A stretch of 64,000 nucleotides of DNA from Artemia franciscana (taxonomy: Eukaryota > Arthropoda > Branchiopoda > Anostraca > Artemiidae): NCBI RefSeq assembly GCF_032884065.1, contig NW_027062889.1, positions 1 through 64,000 of the forward strand. Reading direction: 5' to 3'. Below, one piece after another: positions 19,005 through 55,278 of the stretch. The notes beneath the pieces were generated by a model. The model worked only from the letters and a program-made list of their open reading frames with translations, ran no database searches and was not told the DNA's origin. Numbering within the stretch: the stretch's first letter is position 1; the number at the start of each line of letters is the position of its first letter. The position numbers and the translations under genes are program-made.

Positions 19005-19702
19005 TTAAAAGAGACGTAGAGAGTCGGCAGCAATTAGTTGAGCCATTTCACATCTTTCAGAGATTTTGTAGCAACCTGCTAGCATGACAGAAAGAAATTT
19101 TAAAACAAATAATGTATGCTAACCAGTTTTCAAGATTGAGGGGTGCAAGCCCTTAATTTAAGTGTTTTATAATAGTGATTTTGACCCTCTTTGGGTGAAA
19201 CTGGTGTTTTGTAGCACAAAAGGGTAGAAAAGGCTAGTTTACTGTGGCATGATCTCTTTGGCTAATTAAACACGAATTATAAAAAAACCTTAGAAATCAC
19301 TGCAGCATTCATGTCATTATCCGCTGATGATTTACAAATAAACACGGAACTCACTGCGGCATTCATATCATACTTTAGAACCATCTTAGATGATGGGAGG
19401 GGGTTTAACCTCCCGTTTAGTGTTTTAGACCCTAAAAAATCATTTGAATTAATTAGAATTTGCATGAATTGGCATTTTGACCCTCTTTGGGCAAAAATGT
19501 TTTGTGGTACACAATAGCAGAAAATGCCACTTTGCTGCGATTACAGAAACTGAAAACACTCTGCAGTAATTTAGAGCTCAAAAACTGGTTAACTATCTTA
19601 AAATTTACAGTTCTCGGTATTTTTATCCTTTTTGGGCAGAAACTGATGTTCTAAGGCACAAAGTGACAGAAAACAGAACTTTGTTGTGGCACGATCTCTA
19701 AT
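19005..19702. repeat. Non-coding segment with diverged repeats
   Basis: TTTTGACCCTCTTTGGGC-like blocks near 19,173, 19,475 and 19,618 are followed each time by a related stretch about a 'cacaaaa..cagaaaa' context. The part at 19,290-19,390 resembles 23,090-23,190 in the 8.25-kb unit (CGGAACTCACTGCG word). No gene was seen. Confidence 0.5.
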
Positions 19703-19833
19703 TCAAACAGATCATGGTAACGAACTGTAGTAAGGAGCGACCTGGCTCAATAGTAACCAAAACTATAAAAAACGGAATTTTGATATCAATAGTTACATAA
19801 AAAGAATTGCATTTTACTGCTGATTTTAAATAT
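19703..19833 (+). repeat. Family A repeat, 5' fragment (copy 4)
   Basis: About 130 bp of the family A start (TCAAACAG, hairpin with two substitutions, then the GAGCGACC and GGCTCAATAG blocks), cut off where the inverted copy 5 begins. Confidence 0.75.
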
Positions 19834-19835
19834 AT

Positions 19836-21729
19836 TAAAAAAAAAATTAAATGAAAGTAAGGAGCAACATTTAAACTTAAAACGAACAGAAATTACTCCG
19901 TATATGAAAGGGGCTTTTCGTCCTCAGCGCCCCGCTCTTTCCGCTAAAGTTTGACTCTTTCTCTTAACTCTACATTTTAAAACAGTAAAAAACAGTAAAA
20001 GAACAGAAATTACTCCGTATATGAGAGGGGCTTTTCTTCCTCAACGCCCCGCTCTTTACGCTAAAGTTTGACTCTTTCTCTTAACTCTACATTTTAAAAC
20101 AGTAAAAAACAGTAAAAGAACAGAAATTACTCCGTATATGAAAGGGGCTTTTCCTCCTCAACACCCCGCTCTTTACGCTAAAGTTTGACTCTTTCTCTTA
20201 ACTCTACATTTTAAAACAGTAAAAAACTTTAGCGTAAAGAGCGAGGCGTTGAGGAAGAAAAGCCCCTTTCATATACAAAGTAATTTCTGTTTGTTTTAAG
20301 TATAAATGTCGCTCCTCACTTTCATTTTAAAAAAACTTGTTTTTTTGTTTAATTTCTGGACGTTTTTGAATTAATGCATGTTTTGATCTCGGCTCTCCGC
20401 ACATAAATAATTAAAACGAAACTTGCATATTAATTTTTTTGGGCTAAATGGCTTTTTCATAGTTTTAATCGGAAGATTTTGAGAAAAAAGGAGCTAGGGA
20501 GGAGGCCTAGTTGCCCTCCAGTGTTTGATTACTTAAAAAGGCAACTATAACTTAGAATTTTTTACGAACGTTTTCATAAATAAAAAATATACGTAACTTA
20601 CAAATTAAATTACGTAGTGAACTTCTATATTCGTATGTTTTTATTGCGTATATGAGGGGGCTCACCCCTCTTCGATACCTCGCTCTTTACATTAATAATT
20701 AAATTTTGTCCCAATTCCTTAAGATTGACTCCTGAATCACAAAGACCATAGAATAAATAGTTGAAATTACTAAAAACACTTTAGCGTAAAGAGCGAAGGA
20801 TTACGAGAAGGTAAACCCCTCATATGTGTAATGATTTTTGTTCGTTTTAAGTTTTAATGGTGCTTCTCACTTTCAGTAGAAAAAACTTTTCATATTTATT
20901 TTTTCATTGTTTTTCTTTAAATAATGATTGAAAATCCTGCGCCCCCTCCATTGAAAGTCTCTTCCCCCATGAGCAGTTCCTCCATGGAAAGATCATCCCA
21001 CGTAACTCCATCCTCAACTCCCCCCCAAACCAAAAATACCCCTGAAAATGTCTGTACACTTCCCAGTAACCCTTACTATATGTAAACACAGGTCAAAGTT
21101 TGTAACTTGCAGCCCCTCCCTCGGGGCCTGCAGGGGAGTAAGTCGTCCCCAAAGACATAGTTATTAGGTCTTTCGACTATGATAAATAAAATGGCTATCT
21201 CAGAATTTTGATCCAGTGACTTTTGAGAAAAAATGAGCGTGGTATTCTTGGTCACTTAAAAAGGGCACAAGAACTTTTAATTCCCGTTAGAATGAGCCCT
21301 TTCGCAACATTCTAGGACCACTAAGTCGCTACGATCACCCTTGGGAAAAAAAAACAAACAAACAAATAAACACGCATCTGTGATTTGTCTTCTGGCAAAA
21401 AATGCGAAATTCCACATTTTTCTAGATAGGGCCTTGAAACTTCTACAATAAGGTTCTATGATACGCTGAATTTGATGGTGTGATTTTCGTCAAGATCGTA
21501 TGACTTTTAGGGGGTGTTTCCCCCTATGTTCTAAAACAAGGCAAATTTTCTCAGGCTCGTAACTTTTGATTGGTAAGACTAATCCTGATGAAACTTATAT
21601 ATTTAAACTCAGCATTGTAATGTGATTCTTTTGATGTAACTATTGGTATCAAAATTTCATTTTTTAGAGTTTCAGTTACTGTTGAGCCGGGTCGCTCCTT
21701 ACTACAGTTCGTTACCACGAACTGTTTGA
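19836..21729 (-). repeat. Family A repeat, copy 5 (inverted, full length); left crossover partner
   Basis: The terminal palindrome comes first (19,845-20,345), then the body in reverse, ending at CCACGAACTGTTTGA (21,715-21,729). The palindrome arm is triplicated. The tandem array starts inside this copy at 21,459-21,471, so its right-hand end is shared by all four units and its left part is unique. Confidence 0.88.
19887..20237. repeat. 117-bp tandem triplication of a palindrome arm
   Basis: CAGAAATTACTCCGTATATG occurs at 19,887, 20,004 and 20,121, an exact period of 117 bp. Each unit is one arm plus the loop (ending AAAACAGTAAAAAACAG). The single opposite arm follows at about 20,227-20,330. 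Units differ by a few substitutions. Confidence 0.9.
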
Positions 21730-23035
21730 TAAGTTTCATTAAGTTTAGACTTACCCACCAAAAGTTACGAGCCTGAGAAAATTTGCATTATTTCAGAAAA
21801 TAGGGGGAAACACTCCTTAAAAGTGATAGAATCTTAACGAAAATCAGATTTGCACCATCAGATTCAGCGTATCAGAGCCATACAATAGAAGGTTCTAGCT
21901 CCTATCTACTAAAAAGTGGAATTTTGTATTATTTGCTACAAGATCACGGATGCATGTTTTTTTTTTATATTTTACCCATGGGGCATCCTATCGAACCAGC
22001 GGTCCTAGAATGTCGTGAGAGGGCTCATTCTGACGGAACATAAAAGTTCTAGTGCCTTTTTTACGTGACCACACAAATCAGAGGGCACCTAGGCCCCCTC
22101 CCACGCTCCTTTTCCCCCAAAGCCACCGGATCAAAATTTTGAAATAGCCATTTTATTCAGCATAGTTGGAAAACCTTATAACTATGTTTTTGGGGACGAC
22201 TTATGCCCCCAAAGTCCCCTTGGGAGGAGCTGCAAGTTACAAACTTTGACCAGCGTTTACATATAGTAATGGTTATTGGGAAGTGTATAGACATTTTCAG
22301 GGTGATTTTTTTTTTGGTTGGGGGGAGGGGTTGAGGGGAGAGGGTTACGTGGGTTGAACATTCCGTGGAGGAATTTGTCATGAAAGAAGAAAATTTCCAT
22401 GAAGGTGGCGCAGGATTTTCAAGCATTTAAAAAAAATGAAAAAAAATGAAGAAGTTTTTTCAACTGAAAGCAAGGAGCAGTATTAAAACTTAAAACGAAC
22501 ATAAATCATTGCGTATATGAGGGGTTCATCTCCTAATACTTCGCTCTTTACGCTAAAATATTTTTAGTAATTTCAACTATTTTTTCCAAGGCCATTGTGA
22601 TTCAGGGGTCATTCTTAAGGAATTGGGATAAAATTTAAGCTTTAGTGTAAAGAGCGAAGTATTGACGAGGGGGGCAAACCTCCTCATATACGTAGTAAAG
22701 ACATACGAATAAAGAAGTTTGTTACGTAAGTTAATTCGTAAGTTACATATATTTTTACTAATAAAAACGTTCGAAAAAAATTAAAAGTTCTAGTTGCCTT
22801 TTTAAGTAACCAAGAACTTGGAGGGTAACTATTCCCCTTCTCCCGCTCCTTTTTTCGCAAAATCATTTGATCAAAACTATGAGAAAGCTATTTAGCCAAA
22901 AAATAAATTAATATGGAAATTTCGTTTAGATTATTCATGTGCGGAGAGCCAATTTCAAAACATACATTAATTCAAAAACGTTAAGAAATTGAATAATCCT
23001 TATTTCCAGTTTAAAAAAAACTTATTTTTTATTAT
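21730..23035 (+). repeat. Family A copy 6 (5'-truncated), head-to-head with copy 5
   Basis: Begins directly after the end of the inverted copy 5 at an internal family A position (AAGTTTCATTAAGTTTAGAC), so about 130 bp of the start is missing. It ends near the remnant of the terminal arm at 22,990-23,035. Forms an inverted pair with copy 5. Repeated in every unit. Confidence 0.85.
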
Positions 23036-23039
23036 TTAA

Positions 23040-24300
23040 TCTTACTTTAAAAGGTCAATATGTGCTGACAATTTCTTAAAAGCCATGTTAATCACTGCAT
23101 CGTTCATATTATTATCATCTGACGATTAGTAAACAAGGAAAAAAACGAAAAAATAGACGGAACTCACTGCGACATTCACGTCTCACTTTATTTTCTTTTT
23201 TTTGAATTGCTTGGACTAACATGTTCTACACCTTAAAGTTAAGGTGGGAGGTGTTTAAGAACTCTTTCGTAGCATGGTGGTGACACCTAACACCCAGTCA
23301 AAGAAACAAGGTATTTTCCTTAGGATTTCTCAGAAATACGTTTTAATATGGCGTAAACCTCTAATAACAACAAATCCTCTCTAGAATTGCTTGCTACGAT
23401 GGGCTAGCCACATATTGGCACGGTGGCGTTAATATACATTGTCTTGGCTCAAGAAACGTGGCATTCTCATTAAACTATCTCAGCAATAACCTAATACAAA
23501 AATATGTCTTTTTGTTCGTTTGCATGTCTAATTTTCAAAACGTGATTTTTCTAGTATCAAGATTTAAATCTATAGAATGTAACAGGCAGGTGCATTCAAT
23601 AGATCAATTGACAAGAGATATTTTCATTAAAGCCTCTCAGAAATAACTCTTAAAATGGCTTGGATTTTACTCTAATAGCAACCCACCCCCTAAATTCTGT
23701 GTAGCGAAGAGGAAAAGAAAGACTTTCGAACCTATATGAAGGTGTACCATATTTTAGCCATAATGATACTCTCGCTTTTATTCCATCTCTGATAGGACAT
23801 TAAAGTTCGAATAGAGTAAAAGACCCTATTAGTAAAAAATGCGCTGAGAGAAACCCGCAGAATTATCTAATAACACTCTAAAACATTACTCAATAAGCAG
23901 GTGCTCACCAAATGTAAGCAATTTCTAGTAATCGATTTTCCCCTCTGCATGTCAATTATTGCAGCCACATGGGAACACGCAATCCACTTAATCATTCGAG
24001 TATGCGCGAACAGGGGATACTCCTTGCGCGCAATGGTTTATCATCATCTGAACTAAAATTTTAGAAAAGATTTCATAATCCAACTGTTTCGCGCTCCATT
24101 CTATTGAGGGGGATTTCCTTGCGAATCCTAATGTGGACATAAAATATTTGAAATATGAAGGTTATATGAAAAAAAAACACCTTGAAAGAAAAAATATCTT
24201 AAAAGTATTATGTAACACCCTACGCGTGTGTCCACTTCAGTTACAAGACAGGATTCCCCACGGACCCTGAAGAAACAAGTCATACAAGAATGCGTCATTT
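23040..24300. repeat. Dispersed repeat B, unit 1 copy
   Basis: Two related stretches about 305 bp apart (TCTCAGAAATA... near 23,331 and 23,637) indicate internal duplication. From about 23,620 onward the segment aligns by eye to 62,625-63,670, including GTAAAAGAC, CAATAAGCAGGTG-like, ACACGCAATCCA and GAACAGGGGAT words. On the minus strand both copies can be read as SFTL-EL...IKARVS, but this copy has a TAA in the frame. Nature of the element unknown. Confidence 0.6.
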
Positions 24301-24366
24301 TTAACACAAGTAAACATTCCCCTATTGCGTGAGGAATAAATAATCATAAGGAAAACACTCTTTAAG

Positions 24367-24612
24367 AAAAATGTCATAAAAAGTGCCTTGAAACATCTTG
24401 AAACGTCTTAAAGAAAAATGTCTTAAAAACGTCTTGAAATGTCTCGAAACGTCTTGAAGAAAAGCGTCTAAAAAAATGTCTTGGAATGTCTTGAAAAACG
24501 TCTTGGAGAAAAATGTCTTAAAAATGTCTTGAAACATTTTGAAAAATATCTTGAAGAGAAACGTCTTAAAAATGGCCTGAAATGTCTTGAAACGTCTTGC
24601 AAAACGTCTAGT
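24367..24612. repeat. GTCTTGAAA-type degenerate minisatellite
   Basis: About twenty imperfect recurrences of an 11-12-bp word close to AACGTCTTGAAA, some with an added AGAAAA spacer. The open minus-strand frames over it (Phe/Lys/Arg/Asp-rich) are a product of the repeat, not a gene. Confidence 0.8.
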
Positions 24613-25108
24613 GTCATAACAAAATTTCCTGGCTTGATTTGTCGACTGTAACACGTTCTATTACGTAAAATAAGCATAACTAAACATTCCCTATGACGTA
24701 ACGTGCACCTGTGTCATGAGGGGAATCACCGTTAAACTTCTTCGTCATTAAAGAAAGAAAAGAGTAGCGCCTATGACTTTCATGAAAACCAGTGATGCGT
24801 CACTACTTACCGTGTAGTTCCTTGTCACTTAAAGATCGTATTTTTAAGAATTCTTGCAAGATCTTCATGACACCAGGATTCAACCAAAAGGAGATAACCA
24901 AAGCTGGAGAGAAAGCTTTGCTCCGAATATACAAAGAGGAAAGTAATTAGAATACCCTGAAGGATGTCTGGGTGCTGTTATTTACTATGTGGGTTGCAAG
25001 TTCAAATGTTTTCGTTTAGACAGAGTGGCTTCCGCCAACTTTGGCTGCCGCAAAGTACCACTTTTACAAGTACTATTTGCAAATAATGAATTGGCAAGAC
25101 ATGTCCAA
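24613..25108. other. Unassigned segment of the unit
   Basis: No gene, RNA or family match recognised. Contains GTGATGCGTCAC (near 24,792), a short near-palindrome. Confidence 0.35.
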
Positions 25109-26505
25109 TCAAATAGTTCGTGGTAACGAACTGTAGTAAGGAGTGACCCGGCTCAATAGCAATCGAAACACTAAAAAATAAAATTTTAATACCAACAGTT
25201 ACATCAAAAGAACCGCAGTTTAATGCTGATGTTAAGTATATAAGTTTCATCAAGTTTAGTTTTACCCATAAACAGTTGCGAGCCTGGGAAAATTTCCCTT
25301 ATTTTAGACAATAGGGGGAAACGTAGAATCTTAAAAAAAAATCACAGAATCTTAACGATATTAACACCATCAGATTCAGCGTATCAGAGAACCCTACTGT
25401 AGAGGTTTCAAACTCCTATCTACAAAAATGTGGAATTTTGTATTTTTTCTCAGAAGACAGATCACGGATGCGTGTTTATTTGTTTGTTTGTTTGTTGTTG
25501 TTTTTTCCTAGGGGTGATCATATTGACCCTGTGGTCCTAGAATGTCGCGAGAGGGCTCAATCTAACGGAGATTAAAAGTTATACTGCCCTTTTTAAGTGA
25601 ACGAAAATTGGAGGGCACCTAAAACCCCTCCCCCACACGTTTTTTTCCCAAGTTCACTGGATCAAAATTTTTATATAACCATTCTGTTCAACTTAGTCAA
25701 AAACCTGATAAACATGTCTTTGGGGACGACTTAATACCCCACAGACCCCCCGGGGGAGGGGCTGCAAGTTACAAACTTCGATCATTGTTCACATATAGTG
25801 AACAGTTTTGCGTTGGGGCTGGGGTGAGTCAGAGGGGGGGTTACTTGGGAGGATCTTTCCATGGAGAAATTTTTCATGAGGGAAGAGAATATCCATGAAG
25901 GGGGGGGGCAGGATTTTCTAGCATTACATAAAAAAATGAGAAAAAAATTCAACTTCAAGTAGTAAGCAGTATTATAACTTAAAACGAACATAAAATATTA
26001 CGTATGTAAGGGGGTTCGTCTCCTCCACAATACCTTGCTCTTTACACTAAAGTATTTTTAGTAATTTCAACTATTTATTCTACGGTCTTTGTGAATGAGG
26101 GATCATTCTTAAAGATTTGGGACAAAATTCAAGCTTTAGTGTAAAGAATGAGGTATTGACGAGGCGCCGATCCCCCTCATATGCGTAATAAAAATACACA
26201 AATATAGAAGTTCGTTACGTAAGTTAATTCGTAAGGTACGTATGTTTATTACTAACAAAAAGGTTTGTAAGAAAAATAAAAAATCTAGTTGCATTTTTAA
26301 GCAAACAAAAATTGAAGGCAACTAGGCTTCCTCGCCTATTCCCTTTTTTTATCACACACTATGTCCGACCACAACTATGAAAAAACATATATAAAGTATA
26401 TAACACACAACTATATAATGCCATTTAGCAAAAAAAAAATTAATATGCAATTTTGGTTTTATTTATTCATGCGTGGTGAGCCAAAATTAAAACATGCATT
26501 AATTC
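25109..26505 (+). repeat. Family A copy 7 (3'-truncated) in unit 1
   Basis: A|TCAAATAG start and hairpin (TAGTTCGT, GGTA, ACGAACTG), then the family body. It stops at AACATGCATTAATTCA and joins the outer end of an IR element (CAAGAACCAAGAGCTC). The terminal palindrome is therefore replaced by the half IR element. Present in all units. Confidence 0.85.
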
Positions 26506-28245
26506 ATCAAGAACCAAGAGCTCATATGGTACTTGTGACGAGGTTGGAAGAGCCAAGAGCCAAGAGCTCATTTGGCATGAGCTCTAGCAAAATTCTAAGA
26601 ATCAATAAATTGTTTTACAAGGAAAATTAGAGACTTAATGGGATTTAAATAAGGGATTTAAATAAGATTAAGCTCGGGATTTAAAATAAGAGCTCTGAGA
26701 CACAAGGTTCTTCTAATTATCAAAATTCATTAAGATCCGATGACCCATTCGTAAGTTAAAAATAACTCATTTTTTTCCTCTCCTTTCAACCCCCCTCCCA
26801 GATGGTCGAATCGGGGAAAAACTTTGTCAAGTCAATTTGTGCAGGTCCCTGACACGTCTACCAATTTTCATCGTCCTAGACATCCCGAAGCACCAAACTC
26901 ACCTAAGCAATGGAACCCCCTAACTCCCCTAAAGAGAGCGGATCCAGTTCAGTTACGTCAATCACGTATCTACGATATTTGCTTACCCTACCCTCCAAGT
27001 TTCATCCCGATACCTCCACTCTAAGCGTTTTCCAAGATTTCTGGTTTCCCCCATAACCCCCCCCCCAAAGTCACCATATCTGGTCAGGATTTAAAATAAG
27101 AGCTCTGAGACATGCGATCCTTCTAAATTTCAAATTTCATTAAGATCTGGTCACCCGGTCTTACGTTAAAAATACCTCAACTTTTCTAATTTTTCCGAAT
27201 TAACATCCCCCTCAACTCCCCCAAAGAGAGCAGATCCGAGCCAATTATATCAATCTCATATCTAGAACTTATATTTATTCTTCCCATCAAGTTTCATCCC
27301 GATTTCTGTACTCTAAGTGTTTTCCAAGATTTCCGGTTTCCAAGATTTCTGTTTCCCCCTTCCAACCCCCTATGTCCCCGGATCCAATTCGAAATGAAAA
27401 TGGAGCATCTGACATATAAGATTTTTCTACATATCAAGTTTCATTAAGATCCGATCACCTATTCATAAGATAAAGAAACCTCAATTTTCACGTTTTCCAA
27501 GATTTCCAGTCTCCCCCCCCAACGTCACCGGATCTGGTCGTGATTTAAAACAAGAGCTCTGAAGCACAAGATCCTTCTAAGTATCAAATTTCATTAAGAT
27601 CTGATCAACCGTTCGAAGTTACAAATGCCTCATATTTTCTAAAAAAAATTTCAATTACCCCCCTCCCCAACTCCCCCAAAGAGAGCTGATTCAGTCCGGT
27701 TGGGTGAGTCACGTATCTTGGACTTTTGCTTATTCTTCCCACCAAGTTTCATCCTGATCTCTCCACTCTAAGCGTTTTCCAAGATATCCGGTCCCCCACT
27801 CCCCCAATGACACTGGATCCAGTTGAGAATTAAAATAAGAGATTTGAGTTACAAGGTCCTTCTAAATATGCAATTTCATTAAGATTCAATCACTCCTTCG
27901 TAAGTTAAAAATACCTCATTTTTTCTAATTTTCAGAATTAACCCTCCCCCTACTCCCCAATGGGAGCAGATCCGTTGCAGTTATGTCAATGACGTATTTA
28001 GGATTTGTGGTTATTTTTCCCACCAAGACTCATTCTGATCCCTCCACTCTAAGCGTTTTCTAAGATTTTAGGTTTTCCCCTCCAACTCCCTCCCCATGTC
28101 ACCGAACCCAGTCGGAGTTTAAAATAATAGCTCTGAGACACGATATCCTTCTAAATATCAAATTTCATTAAGATCCGATCACCCTTTCGTAAGTTTAAAT
28201 ATCTTATTCTATCTAATTTTTCGGAATTAACCGTCCGTCGTTTAA
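26506..28245 (+). repeat. Half copy of the 3.8-kb IR element in unit 1
   Basis: Outer end CAAGAACCAAGAGCTC then GTGACGAGGTTGGAAGAGCC, followed by tandem units of about 250-300 bp (AAAGAGAGCGGATCC-like words near 26,931, 27,224, 27,680 and 27,957). Corresponds to the left arm of 10,627-12,740. No inverted right arm is present; a family A minus copy follows at once. Confidence 0.85.
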
Positions 28246-28250
28246 GTAAA

Positions 28251-29975
28251 CTTAAATAAAATAAAAAAACAAGTTTTTTCAACTGAAAGTAAGGAGTGAC
28301 ATCAAAACTTAAAACGCACAGAAATTACTTCGTATATGAAAGAGGCTGCTTCCTCATCAACGCCCCGCTCTTTACGCTAAAGTTTGACTCTTTCTCTCAA
28401 TTCTTCCTTTTAAAACAGTAAAAAACTTTAGCGTAAAGAGCGGGGCGTTTATGAGGAAGCAGCCTCTTTCATATACGAAGTAATTTCTGTGCGTTTTAAG
28501 TTTTGATGTCACTCCTTACTTTCAGTTGAAAAAACTTGTTTTTTTATTTAATTTCTGAACGTTTTTGAATCAATGCATGTTTTGATTTTGGCTCTCCGCA
28601 GAGGAATAATCAAAAACGAAATTTGCATTTTTTTTTTTTTTTGGCTCAATGGCTTTCTCATAACTTTGATCGAATGATTTTGAGAAAAAAAGAGCGGGGG
28701 ACGAAGCCTAGTTGCCCCCCGATTTTTTGGTTAATTAAAAAGGCAACTAGAACTTTTAATTTTTTACGAATCTTTTTATTTGTAAAAGATTTACGTAGCT
28801 TATAAATTAGCTTACGTAAAGAACTTTTGTATTCTCATGTTTTTATTACATATATGAGGGGATTCGCCCCATCGTCAGTACCTCGCTCTTTACACTAAAG
28901 CTTAAATTTTATCCCAATTCATCCCCCCCTGAATCACAAAAGCCGTAGAATAAGTAGTTGAAATTACCGAAAATACTTTAGCGTAAAGAGCGAGGTATTA
29001 AAAAGAGGTGAGCCCCTCATATGGGTAATAATTTCTGTTTGTTTTAAGTTTTATTGCTGTTCCTTACTTCCAGCTGAAAAAGCTTTTTCACTTTTATTTT
29101 TTAATTGTTTTTTTTTTTAATAATGCTAGTAAATCCTGCTCTCCCTTCATGGAAATTTTCTTCTCCCATTACAAATTCTCGAAGGAAAGTTCCCCCAGCA
29201 TATCCCCCTCTTCTCAACCCCTCCCCCAAACCAAAAAAAATCCTCCTGAAAACGCCTGTATACTTCCCAATAACCATTACTATATGTAAGCACAGGTCAA
29301 AGTTTGTAACTTGTTGCCCCTCCCACGGGGACTGTGGGGGAGTAAGTCGTCCCCAAAGACATAGTTATAAGGTTTTTCGACTAAGCTGAATAAAATGGCT
29401 ATCTCAGAATTTTGATCTGTTGACTTTGGGAAAATAATTAGCGTGGGAGGGGGCCTAGGTGCCCTCCAATTTTTTTGGTCACTTAAAAAGGGCACTAGAA
29501 CTTTTCATTTCCGTTAGAATGAGCCCTCTTGCAACATTCTAGGACAACTGGGTCGATACGATCACCCCTGGAAAAAAAACAACAAAAAAACAAAAAAAAA
29601 CAAAAAAACAAATAAACACGCATCCGTGATCTGCCTTCTGGCAAAAAATGCAAAATTCCACATTTTTGTAGATAGGAACTCGAAACTTCTACAGTAGGGT
29701 TCTCTGATACGCTGAATTTGATGGTGTGATTTTCGTCAAGATCGTATGACTTTTAGGGGGTGTTTCCCCCTATGTTCTAAAACAAGGCAAATTTTCTCAG
29801 GCTCGTAACTTTTGATTGGTAAGACTAATCCTGATGAAACTTATATATTTAAACTCAGCATTGTAATGTGATTCTTTTGATGTAACTATTGGTATCAAAA
29901 TTTCATTTTTTAGAGTTTCAGTTACTGTTGAGCCGGGTCGCTCCTTACTACAGTTCGTTACCACGAACTGTTTGA
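28251..29975 (-). repeat. Chimeric family A copy spanning the unit 1/2 junction
   Basis: Palindrome at 28,255-28,553, then the reversed body, ending at the hairpin and CTGTTTGA. To the left of 29,705 it matches the right-flank copy (52,997-54,722); to the right of 29,717 it matches the left-flank copy (19,836-21,729). The same chimera occurs at the next two junctions. Confidence 0.93.
28255..28553. repeat. Family A terminal palindrome in unit 1
   Basis: Arms 28,261-28,385 and 28,425-28,549 match with a single substitution (ATCAACG versus ATAAACG). Both carry private variants: GTGACATCAAAAC and CGCACAG. Repeated at corresponding positions in units 2-4. Confidence 0.92.
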
Positions 29976-32900
29976 TAAGTTTCATTAAGTTTAGACTTAC
30001 CCACCAAAAGTTACGAGCCTGAGAAAATTTGCATTATTTCAGAAAATAGGGGGAAACACTCCTTAAAAGTGATAGAATCTTAACGAAAATCAGATTTGCA
30101 CCATCAGATTCAGCGTATCAGAGCCATACAATAGAAGGTTCTAGCTCCTATCTACTAAAAAGTGGAATTTTGTATTATTTGCTACAAGATCACGGATGCA
30201 TGTTTTTTTTTATATTTTACCCATGGGGCATCCTATCGAACCAGCGGTCCTAGAATGTCGTGAGAGGGCTCATTCTGACGGAACATAAAAGTTCTAGTGC
30301 CTTTTTTACGTGACCACACAAATCAGAGGGCACCTAGGCCCCCTCCCACGCTCCTTTTCCCCCAAAGCCACCGGATCAAAATTTTGAAATAGCCATTTTA
30401 TTCAGCATAGTTGGAAAACCTTATAACTATGTTTTTGGGGACGACTTATGCCCCCAAAGTCCCCTTGGGAGGAGCTGCAAGTTACAAACTTTGACCAGCG
30501 TTTACATATAGTAATGGTTATTGGGAAGTGTATAGACATTTTCAGGGTGATTTTTTTTTTGGTTGGGGGGAGGGGTTGAGGGGAGAGGGTTACGTGGGTT
30601 GAATATTCCGTGGAGGAATTTGTCATGAAAGAAGAAAATTTCCATGAAGGTGGCGCAGGATTTTCAAGCATTTAAAAAAAATGAAAAAAAATGAAGAAGT
30701 TTTTTCAACTGAAAGCAAGGAGCAGTATTAAAACTTAAAACGAACATAAATCATTGCGTATATGAGGGGTTCATCTCCTAATACTTCGCTCTTTACGCTA
30801 AAATATTTTTAGTAATTTCAACTATTTTTTCCAAGGCCATTGTGATTCAGGGGTCATTCTTAAGGAATTGGGATAAAATTTAAGCTTTAGTGTAAAGAGC
30901 GAAGTATTGACGAGGGGGGCAAACCTCCTCATATACGTAGTAAAGACATACGAATAAAGAAGTTTGTTACGTAAGTTAATTCGTAAGTTACATATATTTT
31001 TACTAATAAAAACGTTCGAAAAAAATTAAAAGTTCTAGTTGCCTTTTTAAGTAACCAAGAACTTGGAGGGTAACTATTCCCCTTCTCCCGCTCCTTTTTT
31101 CGCAAAATCATTTGATCAAAACTATGAGAAAGCTATTTAGCCAAAAAATAAATTAATATGGAAATTTCGTTTAGATTATTCATGTGCGGAGAGCCAATTT
31201 CAAAACATACATTAATTCAAAAACGTTAAGAAATTGAATAATCCTTATTTCCAGTTTAAAAAAAACTTATTTTTTATTATTTAATCTTACTTTAAAAGGT
31301 CAATATGTGCTGACAATTTCTTAAAAGCCATGTTAATCACTGCATCGTTCATATTATTATCATCTGACGATTAGTAAACAAGGAAAAAAACGAAAAAATA
31401 GACGGAACTCACTGCGACATTCACGTCTCACTTTATTTTCTTTTTTTTTGAATTGCTTGGACTAACATGTTCTACACCTTAAAGTTAAGGTGGGAGGTGT
31501 TTAAGAACTCTTTCGTAGCATGGTGGTGACACCTAACACCCAGTCAAAGAAACAAGGTATTTTCCTTAGGATTTCTCAGAAATACGTTTTAATATGGCGT
31601 AAACCTCTAATAACAACAAATCCTCTCTAGAATTGCTTGCTACGATGGGCTAGCCACATATTGGCACGGTGGCGTTAATATACATTGTCTTGGCTCAAGA
31701 AACGTGGCATTCTCATTAAACTATCTCAGCAATAACCTAATACAAAAATATGTCTTTTTGTTCGTTTGCATGTCTAATTTTCAAAACGTGATTTTTCTAG
31801 TATCAAGATTTAAATCTATAGAATGTAACAGGCAGGTGCATTCAATAGATCAATTGACAAGAGATATTTTCATTAAAGCCTCTCAGAAATAACTCTTAAA
31901 ATGGCTTGGATTTTACTCTAATAGCAACCCACCCCCTAAATTCTGTGTAGCGAAGAGGAAAAGAAAGACTTTCGAACCTATATGAAGGTGTACCATATTT
32001 TAGCCATAATGATACTCTCGCTTTTATTCCATCTCTGATAGGACATTAAAGTTCGAATAGAGTAAAAGACCCTATTAGTAAAAAATGCGCTGAGAGAAAC
32101 CCGCAGAATTATCTAATAACACTCTAAAACATTACTCAATAAGCAGGTGCTCACCAAATGTAAGCAATTTCTAGTAATCGATTTTCCCCTCTGCATGTCA
32201 ATTATTGCAGCCACATGGGAACACGCAATCCACTTAATCATTCGAGTATGCGCGAACAGGGGATACTCCTTGCGCGCAATGGTTTATCATCATCTGAACT
32301 AAAATTTTAGAAAAGATTTCATAATCCAACTGTTTCGCGCTCCATTCTATTGAGGGGGATTTCCTTGCGAATCCTAATGTGGACATAAAATATTTGAAAT
32401 ATGAAGGTTATATGAAAAAAAAACACCTTGAAAGAAAAAATATCTTAAAAGTATTATGTAACACCCTACGCGTGTGTCCACTTCAGTTACAAGACAGGAT
32501 TCCCCACGGACCCTGAAGAAACAAGTCATACAAGAATGCGTCATTTTTAACACAAGTAAACATTCCCCTATTGCGTGAGGAATAAATAATCATAAGGAAA
32601 ACACTCTTTAAGAAAAATGTCATAAAAAGTGCCTTGAAACATCTTGAAACGTCTTAAAGAAAAATGTCTTAAAAACGTCTTGAAATGTCTCGAAACGTCT
32701 TGAAGAAAAGCGTCTAAAAAAATGTCTTGGAATGTCTTGAAAAACGTCTTGGAGAAAAATGTCTTAAAAATGTCTTGAAACATTTTGAAAAATATCTTGA
32801 AGAGAAACGTCTTAAAAATGGCCTGAAATGTCTTGAAACGTCTTGCAAAACGTCTAGTGTCATAACAAAATTTCCTGGCTTGATTTGTCGACTGTAACAC

Positions 32901-43900: not shown

Positions 43901-46202
43901 GCATCTGACATATAAGATTTTTCTACATATCAAGTTTCATTAAGATCCGATCACCTATTCATAAGATAAAGAAACCTCAATTTTCACGTTTTCCAAGATT
44001 TCCAGTCTCCCCCCCCAACGTCACCGGATCTGGTCGTGATTTAAAACAAGAGCTCTGAAGCACAAGATCCTTCTAAGTATCAAATTTCATTAAGATCTGA
44101 TCAACCGTTCGAAGTTACAAATGCCTCATATTTTCTAAAAAAAATTTCAATTACCCCCCTCCCCAACTCCCCCAAAGAGAGCTGATTCAGTCCGGTTGGG
44201 TGAGTCACGTATCTTGGACTTTTGCTTATTCTTCCCACCAAGTTTCATCCTGATCTCTCCACTCTAAGCGTTTTCCAAGATATCCGGTCCCCCACTCCCC
44301 CAATGACACTGGATCCAGTTGAGAATTAAAATAAGAGATTTGAGTTACAAGGTCCTTCTAAATATGCAATTTCATTAAGATTCAATCACTCCTTCGTAAG
44401 TTAAAAATACCTCATTTTTTCTAATTTTCAGAATTAACCCTCCCCCTACTCCCCAATGGGAGCAGATCCGTTGCAGTTATGTCAATGACGTATTTAGGAT
44501 TTGTGGTTATTTTTCCCACCAAGACTCATTCTGATCCCTCCACTCTAAGCGTTTTCTAAGATTTTAGGTTTTCCCCTCCAACTCCCTCCCCATGTCACCG
44601 AACCCAGTCGGAGTTTAAAATAATAGCTCTGAGACACGATATCCTTCTAAATATTAAATTTCATTAAGATCCGATCACCCTTTCGTAAGTTTAAATATCT
44701 TATTCTATCTAATTTTTCGGAATTAACCGTCCGTCGTTTAAGTAAACTTAAATAAAATAAAAAAACAAGTTTTTTCAACTGAAAGTAAGGAGTGACATCA
44801 AAACTTAAAACGCACAGAAATTACTTCGTATATGAAAGAGGCTGCTTCCTCATCAACGCCCCGCTCTTTACGCTAAAGTTTGACTCTTTCTCTCAATTCT
44901 TCCTTTTAAAACAGTAAAAAACTTTAGCGTAAAGAGCGGGGCGTTTATGAGGAAGCAGCCTCTTTCATATACGAAGTAATTTCTGTGCGTTTTAAGTTTT
45001 GATGTCACTCCTTACTTTCAGTTGAAAAAACTTGTTTTTTTATTTAATTTCTGAACGTTTTTGAATCAATGCATGTTTTGATTTTGGCTCTCCGCAGAGG
45101 AATAATCAAAAACGAAATTTGCATTTTTTTTTTTTTTTTGGCTCAATGGCTTTCTCATAACTTTGATCGAATGATTTTGAGAAAAAAAGAGCGGGGGACG
45201 AAGCCTAGTTGCCCCCCGATTTTTTGGTTAATTAAAAAGGCAACTAGAACTTTTAATTTTTTACGAATCTTTTTATTTGTAAAAGATTTACGTAGCTTAT
45301 AAATTAGCTTACGTAAAGAACTTTTGTATTCTCATGTTTTTATTACATATATGAGGGGATTCGCCCCATCGTCAGTACCTCGCTCTTTACACTAAAGCTT
45401 AAATTTTATCCCAATTCATCCCCCCCTGAATCACAAAAGCCGTAGAATAAGTAGTTGAAATTACCGAAAATACTTTAGCGTAAAGAGCGAGGTATTAAAA
45501 AGAGGTGAGCCCCTCATATGGGTAATAATTTCTGTTTGTTTTAAGTTTTATTGCTGTTCCTTACTTCCAGCTGAAAAAGCTTTTTCACTTTTATTTTTTA
45601 ATTGTTTTTTTTTTTAATAATGCTAGTAAATCCTGCTCTCCCTTCATGGAAATTTTCTTCTCCCATTAAAAATTCTCGAAGGAAAGTTCCCCCAGCATAT
45701 CCCCCTCTTCTCAACCCCTCCCCCAAACCAAAAAAAATCCTCCTGAAAACGCCTGTATACTTCCCAATAACCATTACTATATGTAAGCACAGGTCAAAGT
45801 TTGTAACTTGTTGCCCCTCCCACGGGGACTGTGGGGGAGTAAGTCGTCCCCAAAGACATAGTTATAAGGTTTTTCGACTAAGCTGAATAAAATGGCTATC
45901 TCAGAATTTTGATCTGTTGACTTTGGGAAAATAATTAGCGTGGGAGGGGGCCTAGGTGCCCTCCAATTTTTTTGGTCACTTAAAAAGGGCACTAGAACTT
46001 TTCATTTCCGTTAGAATGAGCCCTCTTGCAACATTCTAGGACAACTGGGTCGATACGATCACCCCTGGAAAAAAAACAACAAAAAAACAAAAAAAAACAA
46101 AAAAACAAATAAACACGCATCCGTGATCTGCCTTCTGGCAAAAAATGCAAAATTCCACATTTTTGTAGATAGGAACTCGAAACTTCTACAGTAGGGTTCT
46201 CT
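37954..46202. repeat. 8.25-kb tandem unit 3 (8,249 bp)
   Basis: Offset +16,494 from unit 1. Contents: family A plus copy 38,224-39,534; repeat B 39,534-40,794; minisatellite 40,861-41,106; family A plus copy 41,603-43,001; half IR element 43,002-44,741; chimeric family A minus copy 44,747-46,472. Private substitutions: G near 39,824 (TTTGTCAGA, others TTTCTCAGA) and A near 45,668. Confidence 0.95.
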
Positions 46203-49200
46203 GATACGCTGAATTTGATGGTGTGATTTTCGTCAAGATCGTATGACTTTTAGGGGGTGTTTCCCCCTATGTTCTAAAACAAGGCAAATTTTCTCAGGCT
46301 CGTAACTTTTGATTGGTAAGACTAATCCTGATGAAACTTATATATTTAAACTCAGCATTGTAATGTGATTCTTTTGATGTATCTATTGGTATCAAAATTT
46401 CATTTTTTAGAGTTTCAGTTACTGTTGAGCCGGGTCGCTCCTTACTACAGTTCGTTACCACGAACTGTTTGATAAGTTTCATTAAGTTTAGACTTACCCA
46501 CCAAAAGTTACGAGCCTGAGAAAATTTGCATTATTTCAGAAAATAGGGGGAAACACTCCTTAAAAGTGATAGAATCTTAACGAAAATCAGATTTGCACCA
46601 TCAGATTCAGCGTATCAGAGCCATACAATAGAAGGTTCTAGCTCCTATCTACTAAAAAGTGGAATTTTGTATTATTTGCTACAAGATCACGGATGCATGT
46701 TTTTTTTTATATTTTACCCATGGGGCATCCTATCGAACCAGCGGTCCTAGAATGTCGTGAGAGGGCTCATTCTGACGGAACATAAAAGTTCTAGTGCCTT
46801 TTTTACGTGACCACACAAATCAGAGGGCACCTAGGCCCCCTCCCACGCTCCTTTTCCCCCAAAGCCACCGGATCAAAATTTTGAAATAGCCATTTTATTC
46901 AGCATAGTTGGAAAACCTTATAACTATGTTTTTGGGGACGACTTATGCCCCCAAAGTCCCCTTGGGAGGAGCTGCAAGTTACAAACTTTGACCAGCGTTT
47001 ACATATAGTAATGGTTATTGGGAAGTGTATAGACATTTTCAGGGTGATTTTTTTTTTGGTTGGGGGGAGGGGTTGAGGGGAGAGGGTTACGTGGGTTGAA
47101 CATTCCGTGGAGGAATTTGTCATGAAAGAAGAAAATTTCCATGAAGGTGGCGCAGGATTTTCAAGCATTTAAAAAAAATGAAAAAAAATGAAGAAGTTTT
47201 TTCAACTGAAAGCAAGGAGCAGTATTAAAACTTAAAACGAACATAAATCATTGCGTATATGAGGGGTTCATCTCCTAATACTTCGCTCTTTACGCTAAAA
47301 TATTTTTAGTAATTTCAACTATTTTTTCCAAGGCCATTGTGATTCAGGGGTCATTCTTAAGGAATTGGGATAAAATTTAAGCTTTAGTGTAAAGAGCGAA
47401 GTATTGACGAGGGGGGCAAACCTCCTCATATACGTAGTAAAGACATACGAATAAAGAAGTTTGTTACGTAAGTTAATTCGTAAGTTACATATATTTTTAC
47501 TAATAAAAACGTTCGAAAAAAATTAAAAGTTCTAGTTGCCTTTTTAAGTAACCAAGAACTTGGAGGGTAACTATTCCCCTTCTCCCGCTCCTTTTTTCGC
47601 AAAATCATTTGATCAAAACTATGAGAAAGCTATTTAGCCAAAAAATAAATTAATATGGAAATTTCGTTTAGATTATTCATGTGCGGAGAGCCAATTTCAA
47701 AACATACATTAATTCAAAAACGTTAAGAAATTGAATAATCCTTATTTCCAGTTTAAAAAAAACTTATTTTTTATTATTTAATCTTACTTTAAAAGGTCAA
47801 TATGTGCTGACAATTTCTTAAAAGCCATGTTAATCACTGCATCGTTCATATTATTATCATCTGACGATTAGTAAACAAGGAAAAAAACGAAAAAATAGAC
47901 GGAACTCACTGCGACATTCACGTCTCACTTTATTTTCTTTTTTTTGAATTGCTTGGACTAACATGTTCTACACCTTAAAGTTAAGGTGGGAGGTGTTTAA
48001 GAACTCTTTCGTAGCATGGTGGTGACACCTAACACCCAGTCAAAGAAACAAGGTATTTTCCTTAGGATTTCTCAGAAATACGTTTTAATATGGCGTAAAC
48101 CTCTAATAACAACAAATCCTCTCTAGAATTGCTTGCTACGATGGGCTAGCCACATATTGGCACGGTGGCGTTAATATACATTGTCTTGGCTCAAGAAACG
48201 TGGCATTCTCATTAAACTATCTCAGCAATAACCTAATACAAAAATATGTCTTTTTGTTCGTTTGCATGTCTAATTTTCAAAACGTGATTTTTCTAGTATC
48301 AAGATTTAAATCTATAGAATGTAACAGGCAGGTGCATTCAATAGATCAATTGACAAGAGATATTTTCATTAAAGCCTCTCAGAAATAACTCTTAAAATGG
48401 CTTGGATTTTACTCTAATAGCAACCCACCCCCTAAATTCTGTGTAGCGAAGAGGAAAAGAAAGACTTTCGAACCTATATGAAGGTGTACCATATTTTAGC
48501 CATAATGATACTCTCGCTTTTATTCCATCTCTGATAGGACATTAAAGTTCGAATAGAGTAAAAGACCCTATTAGTAAAAAATGCGCTGAGAGAAACCCGC
48601 AGAATTATCTAATAACACTCTAAAACATTACTCAATAAGCAGGTGCTCACCAAATGTAAGCAATTTCTAGTAATCGATTTTCCCCTCTGCATGTCAATTA
48701 TTGCAGCCACATGGGAACACGCAATCCACTTAATCATTCGAGTATGCGCGAACAGGGGATACTCCTTGCGCGCAATGGTTTATCATCATCTGAACTAAAA
48801 TTTTAGAAAAGATTTCATAATCCAACTGTTTCGCGCTCCATTCTATTGAGGGGGATTTCCTTGCGAATCCTAATGTGGACATAAAATATTTGAAATATGA
48901 AGGTTATATGAAAAAAAAACACCTTGAAAGAAAAAATATCTTAAAAGTATTATGTAACACCCTACGCGTGTGTCCACTTCAGTTACAAGACAGGATTCCC
49001 CACGGACCCTGAAGAAACAAGTCATACAAGAATGCGTCATTTTTAACACAAGTAAACATTCCCCTATTGCGTGAGGAATAAATAATCATAAGGAAAACAC
49101 TCTTTAAGAAAAATGTCATAAAAAGTGCCTTGAAACATCTTGAAACGTCTTAAAGAAAAATGTCTTAAAAACGTCTTGAAATGTCTCGAAACGTCTTGAA

Positions 49201-52200
49201 GAAAAGCGTCTAAAAAAATGTCTTGGAATGTCTTGAAAAACGTCTTGGAGAAAAATGTCTTAAAAATGTCTTGAAACATTTTGAAAAATATCTTGAAGAG
49301 AAACGTCTTAAAAATGGCCTGAAATGTCTTGAAACGTCTTGCAAAACGTCTAGTGTCATAACAAAATTTCCTGGCTTGATTTGTCGACTGTAACACGTTC
49401 TATTACGTAAAATAAGCATAACTAAACATTCCCTATGACGTAACGTGCACCTGTGTCATGAGGGGAATCACCGTTAAACTTCTTCGTCATTAAAGAAAGA
49501 AAAGAGTAGCGCCTATGACTTTCATGAAAACCAGTGATGCGTCACTACTTACCGTGTAGTTCCTTGTCACTTAAAGATCGTATTTTTAAGAATTCTTGCA
49601 AGATCTTCATGACACCAGGATTCAACCAAAAGGAGATAACCAAAGCTGGAGAGAAAGCTTTGCTCCGAATATACAAAGAGGAAAGTAATTAGAATACCCT
49701 GAAGGATGTCTGGGTGCTGTTATTTACTATGTGGGTTGCAAGTTCAAATGTTTTCGTTTAGACAGAGTGGCTTCCGCCAACTTTGGCTGCCGCAAAGTAC
49801 CACTTTTACAAGTACTATTTGCAAATAATGAATTGGCAAGACATGTCCAATCAAATAGTTCGTGGTAACGAACTGTAGTAAGGAGTGACCCGGCTCAATA
49901 GCAATCGAAACACTAAAAAATAAAATTTTAATACCAACAGTTACATCAAAAGAACCGCAGTTTAATGCTGATGTTAAGTATATAAGTTTCATCAAGTTTA
50001 GTTTTACCCATAAACAGTTGCGAGCCTGGGAAAATTTCCCTTATTTTAGACAATAGGGGGAAACGTAGAATCTTAAAAAAAAATCACAGAATCTTAACGA
50101 TATTAACACCATCAGATTCAGCGTATCAGAGAACCCTACTGTAGAGGTTTCAAACTCCTATCTACAAAAATGTGGAATTTTGTATTTTTTCTCAGAAGAC
50201 AGATCACGGATGCGTGTTTATTTGTTTGTTTGTTTGTTGTTGTTTTTTCCTAGGGGTGATCATATTGACCCTGTGGTCCTAGAATGTCGCGAGAGGGCTC
50301 AATCTAACGGAGATTAAAAGTTATACTGCCCTTTTTAAGTGAACGAAAATTGGAGGGCACCTAAAACCCCTCCCCCACACGTTTTTTTCCCAAGTTCACT
50401 GGATCAAAATTTTTATATAACCATTCTGTTCAACTTAGTCAAAAACCTGATAAACATGTCTTTGGGGACGACTTAATACCCCACAGACCCCCCGGGGGAG
50501 GGGCTGCAAGTTACAAACTTCGATCATTGTTCACATATAGTGAACAGTTTTGCGTTGGGGCTGGGGTGAGTCAGAGGGGGGGTTACTTGGGAGGATCTTT
50601 CCATGGAGAAATTTTTCATGAGGGAAGAGAATATCCATGAAGGGGGGGGGCAGGATTTTCTAGCATTACATAAAAAAATGAGAAAAAAATTCAACTTCAA
50701 GTAGTAAGCAGTATTATAACTTAAAACGAACATAAAATATTACGTATGTAAGGGGGTTCGTCTCCTCCACAATACCTTGCTCTTTACACTAAAGTATTTT
50801 TAGTAATTTCAACTATTTATTCTACGGTCTTTGTGAATGAGGGATCATTCTTAAAGATTTGGGACAAAATTCAAGCTTTAGTGTAAAGAATGAGGTATTG
50901 ACGAGGCGCCGATCCCCCTCATATGCGTAATAAAAATACACAAATATAGAAGTTCGTTACGTAAGTTAATTCGTAAGGTACGTATGTTTATTACTAACAA
51001 AAAGGTTTGTAAGAAAAATAAAAAATCTAGTTGCATTTTTAAGCAAACAAAAATTGAAGGCAACTAGGCTTCCTCGCCTATTCCCTTTTTTTATCACACA
51101 CTATGTCCGACCACAACTATGAAAAAACATATATAAAGTATATAACACACAACTATATAATGCCATTTAGCAAAAAAAAAATTAATATGCAATTTTGGTT
51201 TTATTTATTCATGCGTGGTGAGCCAAAATTAAAACATGCATTAATTCATCAAGAACCAAGAGCTCATATGGTACTTGTGACGAGGTTGGAAGAGCCAAGA
51301 GCCAAGAGCTCATTTGGCATGAGCTCTAGCAAAATTCTAAGAATCAATAAATTGTTTTACAAGGAAAATTAGAGACTTAATGGGATTTAAATAAGGGATT
51401 TAAATAAGATTAAGCTCGGGATTTAAAATAAGAGCTCTGAGACACAAGGTTCTTCTAATTATCAAAATTCATTAAGATCCGATGACCCATTCGTAAGTTA
51501 AAAATAACTCATTTTTTTCCTCTCCTTTCAACCCCCCTCCCAGATGGTCGAATCGGGGAAAAACTTTGTCAAGTCAATTTGTGCAGGTCCCTGACACGTC
51601 TACCAATTTTCATCGTCCTAGACATCCCGAAGCACCAAACTCACCTAAGCAATGGAACCCCCTAACTCCCCTAAAGAGAGCGGATCCAGTTCAGTTACGT
51701 CAATCACGTATCTACGATATTTGCTTACCCTACCCTCCAAGTTTCATCCCGATACCTCCACTCTAAGCGTTTTCCAAGATTTCTGGTTTCCCCCATAACC
51801 CCCCCCCCCCCAAAGTCACCATATCTGGTCAGGATTTAAAATAAGAGCTCTGAGACATGCGATCCTTCTAAATTTCAAATTTCATTAAGATCTGGTCACC
51901 CGGTCTTACGTTAAAAATACCTCAACTTTTCTAATTTTTCCGAATTAACATCCCCCTCAACTCCCCCAAAGAGAGCAGATCCGAGCCAATTATATCAATC
52001 TCATATCTAGAACTTATATTTATTCTTCCCATCAAGTTTCATCCCGATCTCTGTACTCTAAGTGTTTTCCAAGATTTCCGGTTTCCAAGATTTCTGTTTC
52101 CCCCTTCCAACCCCCTATGTCCCCGGATCCAATTCGAAATGAAAATGGAGCATCTGACATATAAGATTTTTCTACATATCAAGTTTCATTAAGATCCGAT

Positions 52201-54452
52201 CACCTATTCATAAGATAAAGAAACCTCAATTTTCACGTTTTCCAAGATTTCCAGTCTCCCCCCCCAACGTCACCGGATCTGGTCGTGATTTAAAACAAGA
52301 GCTCTGAAGCACAAGATCCTTCTAAGTATCAAATTTCATTAAGATCTGATCAACCGTTCGAAGTTACAAATGCCTCATATTTTCTAAAAAAAATTTCAAT
52401 TACCCCCCTCCCCAACTCCCCCAAAGAGAGCTGATTCAGTCCGGTTGGGTGAGTCACGTATCTTGGACTTTTGCTTATTCTTCCCACCAAGTTTCATCCT
52501 GATCTCTCCACTCTAAGCGTTTTCCAAGATATCCGGTCCCCCACTCCCCCAATGACACTGGATCCAGTTGAGAATTAAAATAAGAGATTTGAGTTACAAG
52601 GTCCTTCTAAATATGCAATTTCATTAAGATTCAATCACTCCTTCGTAAGTTAAAAATACCTCATTTTTTCTAATTTTCAGAATTAACCCTCCCCCTACTC
52701 CCCAATGGGAGCAGATCCGTTGCAGTTATGTCAATGACGTATTTAGGATTTGTGGTTATTTTTCCCACCAAGACTCATTCTGATCCCTCCACTCTAAGCG
52801 TTTTCTAAGATTTTAGGTTTTCCCCTCCAACTCCCTCCCCATGTCACCGAACCCAGTCGGAGTTTAAAATAATAGCTCTGAGACACGATATCCTTCTAAA
52901 TATTAAATTTCATTAAGATCCGATCACCCTTTCGTAAGTTTAAATATCTTATTCTATCTAATTTTTCGGAATTAACCGTCCGTCGTTTAAGTAAACTTAA
53001 ATAAAATAAAAAAACAAGTTTTTTCAACTGAAAGTAAGGAGTGACATCAAAACTTAAAACGCACAGAAATTACTTCGTATATGAAAGAGGCTGCTTCCTC
53101 ATCAACGCCCCGCTCTTTACGCTAAAGTTTGACTCTTTCTCTCAATTCTTCCTTTTAAAACAGTAAAAAACTTTAGCGTAAAGAGCGGGGCGTTTATGAG
53201 GAAGCAGCCTCTTTCATATACGAAGTAATTTCTGTGCGTTTTAAGTTTTGATGTCACTCCTTACTTTCAGTTGAAAAAACTTGTTTTTTTATTTAATTTC
53301 TGAACGTTTTTGAATCAATGCATGTTTTGATTTTGGCTCTCCGCAGAGGAATAATCAAAAACGAAATTTGCATTTTTTTTTTTTTTTTTTTGGCTCAATG
53401 GCTTTCTCATAACTTTGATCGAATGATTTTGAGAAAAAAAGAGCGGGGGACGAAGCCTAGTTGCCCCCCGATTTTTTGGTTAATTAAAAAGGCAACTAGA
53501 ACTTTTAATTTTTTACGAATCTTTTTATTTGTAAAAGATTTACGTAGCTTATAAATTAGCTTACGTAAAGAACTTTTGTATTCTCATGTTTTTATTACAT
53601 ATATGAGGGGATTCGCCCCATCGTCAGTACCTCGCTCTTTACACTAAAGCTTAAATTTTATCCCAATTCATCCCCCCCTGAATCACAAAAGCCGTAGAAT
53701 AAGTAGTTGAAATTACCGAAAATACTTTAGCGTAAAGAGCGAGGTATTAAAAAGAGGTGAGCCCCTCATATGGGTAATAATTTCTGTTTGTTTTAAGTTT
53801 TATTGCTGTTCCTTACTTCCAGCTGAAAAAGCTTTTTCACTTTTATTTTTTAATTGTTTTTTTTTTAATAATGCTAGTAAATCCTGCTCTCCCTTCATGG
53901 AAATTTTCTTCTCCCATTACAAATTCTCGAAGGAAAGTTCCCCCAGCATATCCCCCTCTTCTCAACCCCTCCCCCAAACCAAAAAAAATCCTCCTGAAAA
54001 CGCCTGTATACTTCCCAATAACCATTACTATATGTAAGCACAGGTCAAAGTTTGTAACTTGTTGCCCCTCCCACGGGGACTGTGGGGGAGTAAGTCGTCC
54101 CCAAAGACATAGTTATAAGGTTTTTCGACTAAGCTGAATAAAATGGCTATCTCAGAATTTTGATCTGTTGACTTTGGGAAAATAATTAGCGTGGGAGGGG
54201 GCCTAGGTGCCCTCCAATTTTTTTGGTCACTTAAAAAGGGCACTAGAACTTTTCATTTCCGTTAGAATGAGCCCTCTTGCAACATTCTAGGACAACTGGG
54301 TCGATACGATCACCCCTGGAAAAAAAACAACAAAAAAACAAAAAAAACAAAAAAACAAATAAACACGCATCCGTGATCTGCCTTCTGGCAAAAAATGCAA
54401 AATTCCACATTTTTGTAGATAGGAACTCGAAACTTCTACAGTAGGGTTCTCT
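46203..54452. repeat. 8.25-kb tandem unit 4 (8,250 bp)
   Basis: Offset +24,743 from unit 1. Contents: family A plus copy 46,473-47,781; repeat B 47,781-49,043; minisatellite 49,110-49,355; family A plus copy 49,852-51,248; half IR element 51,249-52,990; family A minus copy 52,997-54,722. Private T near 46,382 (ATCTATTGG, others AACTATTGG), a longer C-run near 51,800 and a longer T-run near 53,373. Confidence 0.95.
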
Positions 54453-54722
54453 GATACGCTGAATCTGATGGTGTGATTTTCGTTAAGATTCTATAACTTT
54501 TAGGAGGCGTTTCCCCCTATTTTCTAAAATAACGCAAATTTTCTCAGGCTAGTAACTTTTGATGGGTAAGACTAAACTTGATGAAACTTATATATTTAAA
54601 ACCAGCATTAAAATGCGATTCTTTTGATGTAGCTATTGGTATCAAAATTCCATTTTTTTGAGTTTTGGTTACTATTGAGCCGGGTCGCTCCTTACTACAG
54701 TTCGTTACCACGAACTGTTTGA
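52997..54722 (-). repeat. Family A copy at the right flank; right crossover partner
   Basis: Left part identical to the unit copies up to 54,464. From 54,465 (C where unit junctions have T) it diverges from them (TTCGTTAAGATTCTATAAC and onward) and represents the original right-hand copy. Ends at CACGAACTGTTTGA followed by TTAAC. Confidence 0.93.
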
Positions 54723-55099
54723 TTAACAATTTGTCCTCACAAAAAAGAATATTAATCAATTATTTAAATAAAGGGTTTGTCAACTGTCCGCCATTTTGCG
54801 CAAATCCCGGAGCACCATGCGTGCTGCCCAGTTTCGCCACTCGTAGCACGTGCTACCCGATGAAAGCCTACATGATTTCTGATAGTTAACAACCCTTCTG
54901 CATTTTAAACAAGCTTGTTTATTTCTAAAGATATTTATCAGACTTTGATTTTTTCGTTATGTTTGGCCTTTATCCTCTTTTGTTACCCAAAAACATAGTT
55001 GGTAAAAGGAGCTTATGGTACAGGAGTTTCCCACCCACCGCATGGAATAAATCCAAAGGTCTCTAATCCCAAGCCATAGCACTATTCATTGCGTCAAGC
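54723..55099. other. Intergenic, no gene recognised
   Basis: First unique sequence to the right of the array. No coding, RNA or repeat match seen. Confidence 0.4.
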
Positions 55100-55107
55100 A
55101 TGTCATA

Positions 55108-55270
55108 CAGGGTTGTCACCCCTAGTGATTTATCACTATTTTTAGTGATTTTTTAAATTGCCAAAAAACACTAAATCTCCAAATAAATCACTAGATTACA
55201 GAAGAAAATCAATAAATCAACCAAAAAATTACTAACATCTAATTATTTTTTTCACCGGGTGGCAACCCTG
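55108..55270. mobile_element. hAT-type MITE, 163 bp
   Basis: Terminal inverted repeats of 14 bp: CAGGGTTGTCACCC (55,108-55,121) and GGGTGGCAACCCTG (55,257-55,270), one mismatch. It is flanked by a perfect 8-bp target duplication ATGTCATA at 55,100-55,107 and 55,271-55,278. The CAGGG-type ends and 8-bp duplication are typical of the hAT superfamily. The AT-rich interior (with CTAGTGATTTATCACTA) encodes nothing, so mobility would depend on a transposase elsewhere. The perfect duplication suggests a fairly recent insertion. Confidence 0.9.
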
Positions 55271-55278
55271 ATGTCATA

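Follow-up and report, generated by a model that had tools for sequence, protein, structure and literature searches.

The DNA analyzed here, a 64-kb stretch of Artemia franciscana that we call the window, has a GC content of 36% and is filled by many dispersed repeats. Within it, four units stand head to tail at positions 21459 to 54451. The question raised by this locus is how dispersed repeats could give rise to a tandem array of such long units, and what the repeat copies at its edges and internal junctions tell us about the founding event.

RESULTS AND DISCUSSION

Extent of the array and identity of its units

The four units were delimited by the spacing of a recurrent 13-mer and by unit alignment (Table 1). 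Alignment of U1 to U4 revealed differences of 2 to 5 substitutions over 8.2 kb between units, which excludes a chance origin of the array and, set against the divergence of its founding elements, indicates a young age. The initial annotation had placed both edges within two copies of a repeat family (family A) lying in the same (minus) orientation, and these copies, L on the left and R on the right, were confirmed at the base level. Its start of the array at 21459 also stood, whereas its end at 54464 was moved to 54451, since the former takes in 13 bp shared by both copies. With near-identical head-to-tail units and the parent copies at its edges, the locus has the makeup of a tandem array grown by unequal exchange. 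The copy number and chromosomal state given here are those of one assembly.

Table 1. Positions in the window of the array units, family A copies, and associated features
Feature	Positions	Strand	Length	Remark
Head of M	19703..19834	+	132 bp	Outside array; separated from remainder of M by L
L (left parent, family A)	19835..21729	-		Inserted inside family A copy M
13-bp switch block in L	21459..21471	+	13 bp	TGATACGCTGAAT; also at 29705, 37953, 46202, and 54452
U1	21459..29704	.	8246 bp	13-mer spacing and unit alignment
Remainder of M	21730..22996	+		Inside unit 1
N (family A copy inside unit)	25105..26333	+		BLAST
Family B in unit	27491..28236	+		Tandem repeats of about 281 bp, beside R-type part of J1
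J1 (hybrid)	28248..29977	-		R-type to 29704, L-type from 29718
U2	29705..37952	.	8248 bp	13-mer spacing and unit alignment
J2 (hybrid)	36496..38225	-		Switch block 37953-37965
U3	37953..46201	.	8249 bp	13-mer spacing and unit alignment
J3 (hybrid)	44744..46474	-		Switch block 46202-46214
U4	46202..54451	.	8250 bp	13-mer spacing and unit alignment
R (right parent, family A)	52993..54724	-		BLAST

Parent copies and hybrid junctions

L and R were 82.6% identical over 1686 columns by BLAST, and identical columns made up 71.9% of all columns, gaps counted, in a MAFFT alignment. Their alignment contained 221 identical blocks, including blocks of 49, 35, 35, 32, and 29 bp. R terminates at its own end. 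Apart from a local direct repeat of 54 bp, nothing in the 3276 bp beyond it (54725-58000) is found a second time in the window. Tandem Repeats Finder reported three 117-bp tandem repeats in L (19878-20227, 96% matching) and listed none like them for the other family A copies.

Each of the three internal junction copies is a hybrid of these two parents. In a five-copy alignment (L, J1, J2, J3, and R), J1, J2, and J3 were R-type at 239 of 239 L-versus-R substitution columns to the left of one 13-bp block and, all three of them, L-type at 25 of 26 such columns to its right; at the remaining column (L position 21639), J1 and J2 were L-type and J3 had a private third base. This is the change from R-type to L-type that had been proposed, and the two sites flanking the block were as first described: A in L and C in R (54451) at 21458, with C in the junctions, and T in L and C in R (54465) at 21472, with T in the junctions. 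Besides, base-level alignment gave the same switch block each time, so that the breakpoint is indeed common to all three internal junctions. No gene conversion patches were found in J1 to J3 among the 265 substitution columns. To the left of the block there were 284 indel columns, 279 of them R-type in J1 to J3; the exceptions were three LLL columns and one LLR column at one run (20427) and one column matching neither parent at 19985. Two additional columns on that side had a base present in the junction copies alone.

The two parents are joined in register at the switch, without insertion of additional bases, and the five positions given for TGATACGCTGAAT in Table 1 are exactly its plus-strand occurrences. 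Substitution identity between the parents was 89% near the switch (21365-21565) versus 83% over 20300-21458. The 13-mer was found in L, R, M, N, and another family A copy, G (at 5 places in forward and 9 in reverse orientation across the window, array copies counted), and a further copy, F, is one base off. Such a wide occurrence would suit three independent exchanges at a recombination hotspot in the repeat, but we regard this reading as extremely improbable: the units are near-identical throughout, junction copies included, so that copying one junction suffices. Furthermore, the length-weighted chance of one exchange falling in the block is 13/1405, and the chance that two more independent exchanges would agree on it is near 1e-4 if no hotspot is assumed.

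Nested insertion at the left edge

The left edge of the array retains the ancestral arrangement, because family A copy M is split there by L, with its head outside the array and its remainder in unit 1. M is a continuous element once L is omitted: positions 14-1411 of its 1411 positions then align to F in one piece, at 82% identity with one gap at the join. The 132-bp head alone matches the start of other family A copies, and no match to it was found ahead of J1, J2, or J3.

Together, L (20351-21597) and M (21730-22990) make up the arms of an inverted repeat, which are 79.8% identical and enclose a 132-bp loop. The switch lies in the L arm, whose inner end is about 126 bp away; the distance to the L/M boundary is about 260 bp. 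We suggest, as a suggestion only, that this 1.25-kb inverted repeat might stall replication forks. That it is a fragile fork-stalling site driving repeated amplification of the locus by template switching seems to us unlikely; in that case, arrays of long tandem units in this genome would generally be seeded by the insertion of one such element into another.

Founding event

We consider it highly probable that an ancestral locus carrying L and R underwent one in-register R-to-L exchange in the 13-bp block and was later amplified to four units. The ancestral locus would have held one 6.5-kb stretch flanked by L and R, two same-orientation and about 83% identical copies of an old family. A single in-register exchange within the block would then have duplicated this stretch, with a hybrid R/L copy where the two units meet. 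Given their length and near-identity, the units could later have undergone whole-unit unequal exchange that raised their number to four, with the hybrid junction copied unchanged. The parents, the hybrid, the common switch block, the ancestral left edge, and the near-identity of the units are observed; a founding step consisting of one event on a chromosome, the order of the steps, and the repair pathway are inferred.

The initial annotation had proposed one founding unequal crossover and then amplification. A single event followed by amplification is retained as the simplest history given the parents, the hybrid, and the shared block, but a reciprocal crossover is not established, because a 13-bp switch also fits annealing or template switching. 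We thus weighed replication-based template switching or annealing (MMBIR, FoSTeS) in the repeats, without reciprocal crossover and followed by amplification through unequal exchange, and give it a little less than an even chance. It is a rival to the proposed crossover, yet it is an open branch within our preferred explanation; as a pathway for the exchange itself, reciprocal homeologous crossover appears about as likely as annealing or template switching. The switch block is just 13 bp long in diverged repeats, and it sits in the L arm of the inverted repeat, plausibly a fork-stalling structure; both points argue for template switching or annealing. The in-register junction without extra bases, on the other hand, is predicted by crossover too, and the two pathways are indistinguishable here.

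Against our preferred explanation, 13 bp is short for a classical crossover, and longer L/R blocks (up to 49 bp) went unused. With exchange proportional to block length, however, blocks no longer than 13 bp would receive 65% of exchanges, which makes a switch block of this size ordinary; counting only length beyond 12 bp, their share would be 3%. Classical NAHR in mammals involves more than 100 bp of perfect identity, according to passages of a human survey (PMC9675761). The present locus lacks such long perfect identity (13 bp at the switch and 49 bp in the longest L/R block), although the threshold is a mammalian one and may not hold here. In the same passages, most homology-driven transposable element (TE) rearrangements had less than 40 bp of homology, which was deemed too short for classical NAHR, and the authors argued that these rearrangements are mostly likely RAD51-independent (PMC9675761), in favor of template switching or annealing. 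In a human-cell deletion assay, as far as its excerpted results go, 92.5% of the events recovered at a divergence of at least 15% were out-of-register end joining (PMC4356517). At the divergence of about 17% found here, the main outcome expected in that assay is therefore not an in-register switch, since end joining dominates there (PMC4356517, same excerpts).

Order of the units

The units varied at 6 substitution sites and, in homopolymer runs, at 7 indel places. At 22359, U2 and U3 have T, which is derived, because all five other distinct family A copies (F, G, L, R, and N) carry C. At 28159, U2 to U4 share a T that is likewise derived, because C occurs at 12 of 17 distinct paralogous places and T at 1 (the others being 3 G and 1 A; array-repeated places were counted once). 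U3 has two private substitutions (23329 and 29172). One tree, (U1,(U4,(U2,U3))), accommodates all 6 substitution sites. We hold it loosely, as a reading of two informative substitutions and of homopolymer indels (23195 and 25899) that are possibly sequencing errors. The tree agrees with a stepwise history in which the unit was already hybrid when copied; the observed pattern would result if an internal unit was copied after a first duplication.

The same variants bear on two other histories. L/R recombination might have yielded an 8.25-kb extrachromosomal circle, with the array arising by reintegration after rolling-circle copying or by assembler unrolling. A circle would carry an identical hybrid junction, and 22359 is ancestral in U1 and U4 and derived in U2 and U3, as would be expected had these middle units been derived from a separate molecule. 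However, U2 and U3 are not one molecule copied without change, because U4 shares the derived T at 28159 with them and U3 has its private substitutions; stepwise amplification accounts for the identical variant pattern, and we regard the circle as improbable. It is also quite improbable, in our opinion, that the array is an assembly artefact in which a locus with fewer units was lengthened by stringing together its haplotypes or reads. The 2 to 5 substitutions and the homopolymer indels are within the range of haplotype differences or errors, but such an artefact could inflate the copy number and hardly make the hybrid junction. An assembler is not expected to switch at a 13-bp block from one repeat to another that is 83% identical to it, and hence the hybrid junction should exist in molecules.

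Family A and other content of the window

Family A is a putative transposable element, as judged from dispersed copies with a common start and one clean nested insertion. Helitrons are characterized by a 5' TC start, insertion between A and T that leaves no target duplication, a 3' CTRR end, and Rep/helicase in autonomous relatives. Family A starts with TCAAACAG in five of the six copies seen and with TCAAATAG in N, and the base ahead of the start is A in five of six copies and T in M. L was inserted in M between A and T with no target duplication, at the single nested site (19703-22996). Thus, family A has the Helitron-like 5' TC start and A/T insertion, the latter read at one site (L in M). 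The Helitron-like 3' CTRR end was absent in L, the sole copy with an end fixed by an empty site, which ends in a T-rich run and AA. At their far end, copies F (6258-6557), G (18704-19006), and J1 (28254-28554), as well as J2, J3, and R, have a self-inverted stretch of about 300 bp that matches its own reverse complement at about 91% identity.

Four stop-to-stop ORFs of the unit (91 to 111 amino acids), scanned among ten proteins in all, had no Pfam match at an E value of 0.1 or better, and gene content was rejected as the reason for the array. Structured RNA was also rejected, as the window had no Rfam match at gathering scores; no tRNA genes were found in it. Searches of L (19836-21731) against phages and of unit segment 22300-28300 against plasmids gave no match. 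About five 48-bp repeats (79% matches) lie in the unit at 24359-24599, and family B also occurs outside the unit (11439-12371), with tandem repeats of about 255 to 283 bp. At the left end of the window, two fragments on the minus strand, one GIY-YIG and one reverse transcriptase, scored above the Pfam cut-offs, and a second reverse-transcriptase match fell below the cut-off. The GIY-YIG and reverse-transcriptase fragments adjoin (2177-3260, minus strand) and may represent a broken Penelope-like element.

Comparison with known systems

The class of process, tandem duplication mediated by two repeat copies and then amplified, is already known, and the array is ordinary in this respect. TE-mediated rearrangements are prevalent in the human survey, from which we draw on selected passages throughout this comparison (PMC9675761). 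As in its TEMR-HR and mCNV cases, the breakpoints here lie in two elements of the same class, in register, and yield one chimeric junction element (PMC9675761, passages cited): L and R are different copies, both of family A and in the same orientation, and the homologous breakpoints produced a complete chimeric element, the parents being identical at the switch (239/239 and 25/26 columns and the 13-bp block). Short junction identity between roughly 80% similar repeats is a further feature shared with TEMR-HR, and the gain of more copies after a first rearrangement is shared with TE-flanked mCNVs, of which the passages describe four multi-copy cases (PMC9675761). The one given in detail (6 kb, chromosome 17) had microhomology of 1 bp only (PMC9675761). 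Unlike human TEMR-HR as portrayed there, the present case involves another genome and repeat family, longer elements (1.7 to 1.9 kb), and four units, in one assembly (PMC9675761).

An Alu/Alu reporter of homeologous recombination, in its excerpted account, likewise joins diverged repeats at a single switch point, and its junctions were not steered toward longer homology (PMC4356517). That assay scores deletions after an induced break, mostly out-of-register at a divergence of at least 15% (PMC4356517, same account), whereas here we see a duplication. TE-derived satellites and tandem arrays, in the portions of the reports on them used here, resemble the present array in having a monomer built of repeat elements (PMC7004042, PMC12628747). 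In contrast to those satellites as described there, the array has just four very long units and retains both edges of the founding event (PMC7004042, PMC12628747). Thus, although the underlying process is established, the array documents very completely how dispersed repeats begin to turn into a tandem array, through its parents, hybrid, ancestral nesting at the left edge, and readable unit order, and is useful as a teaching or calibration case.
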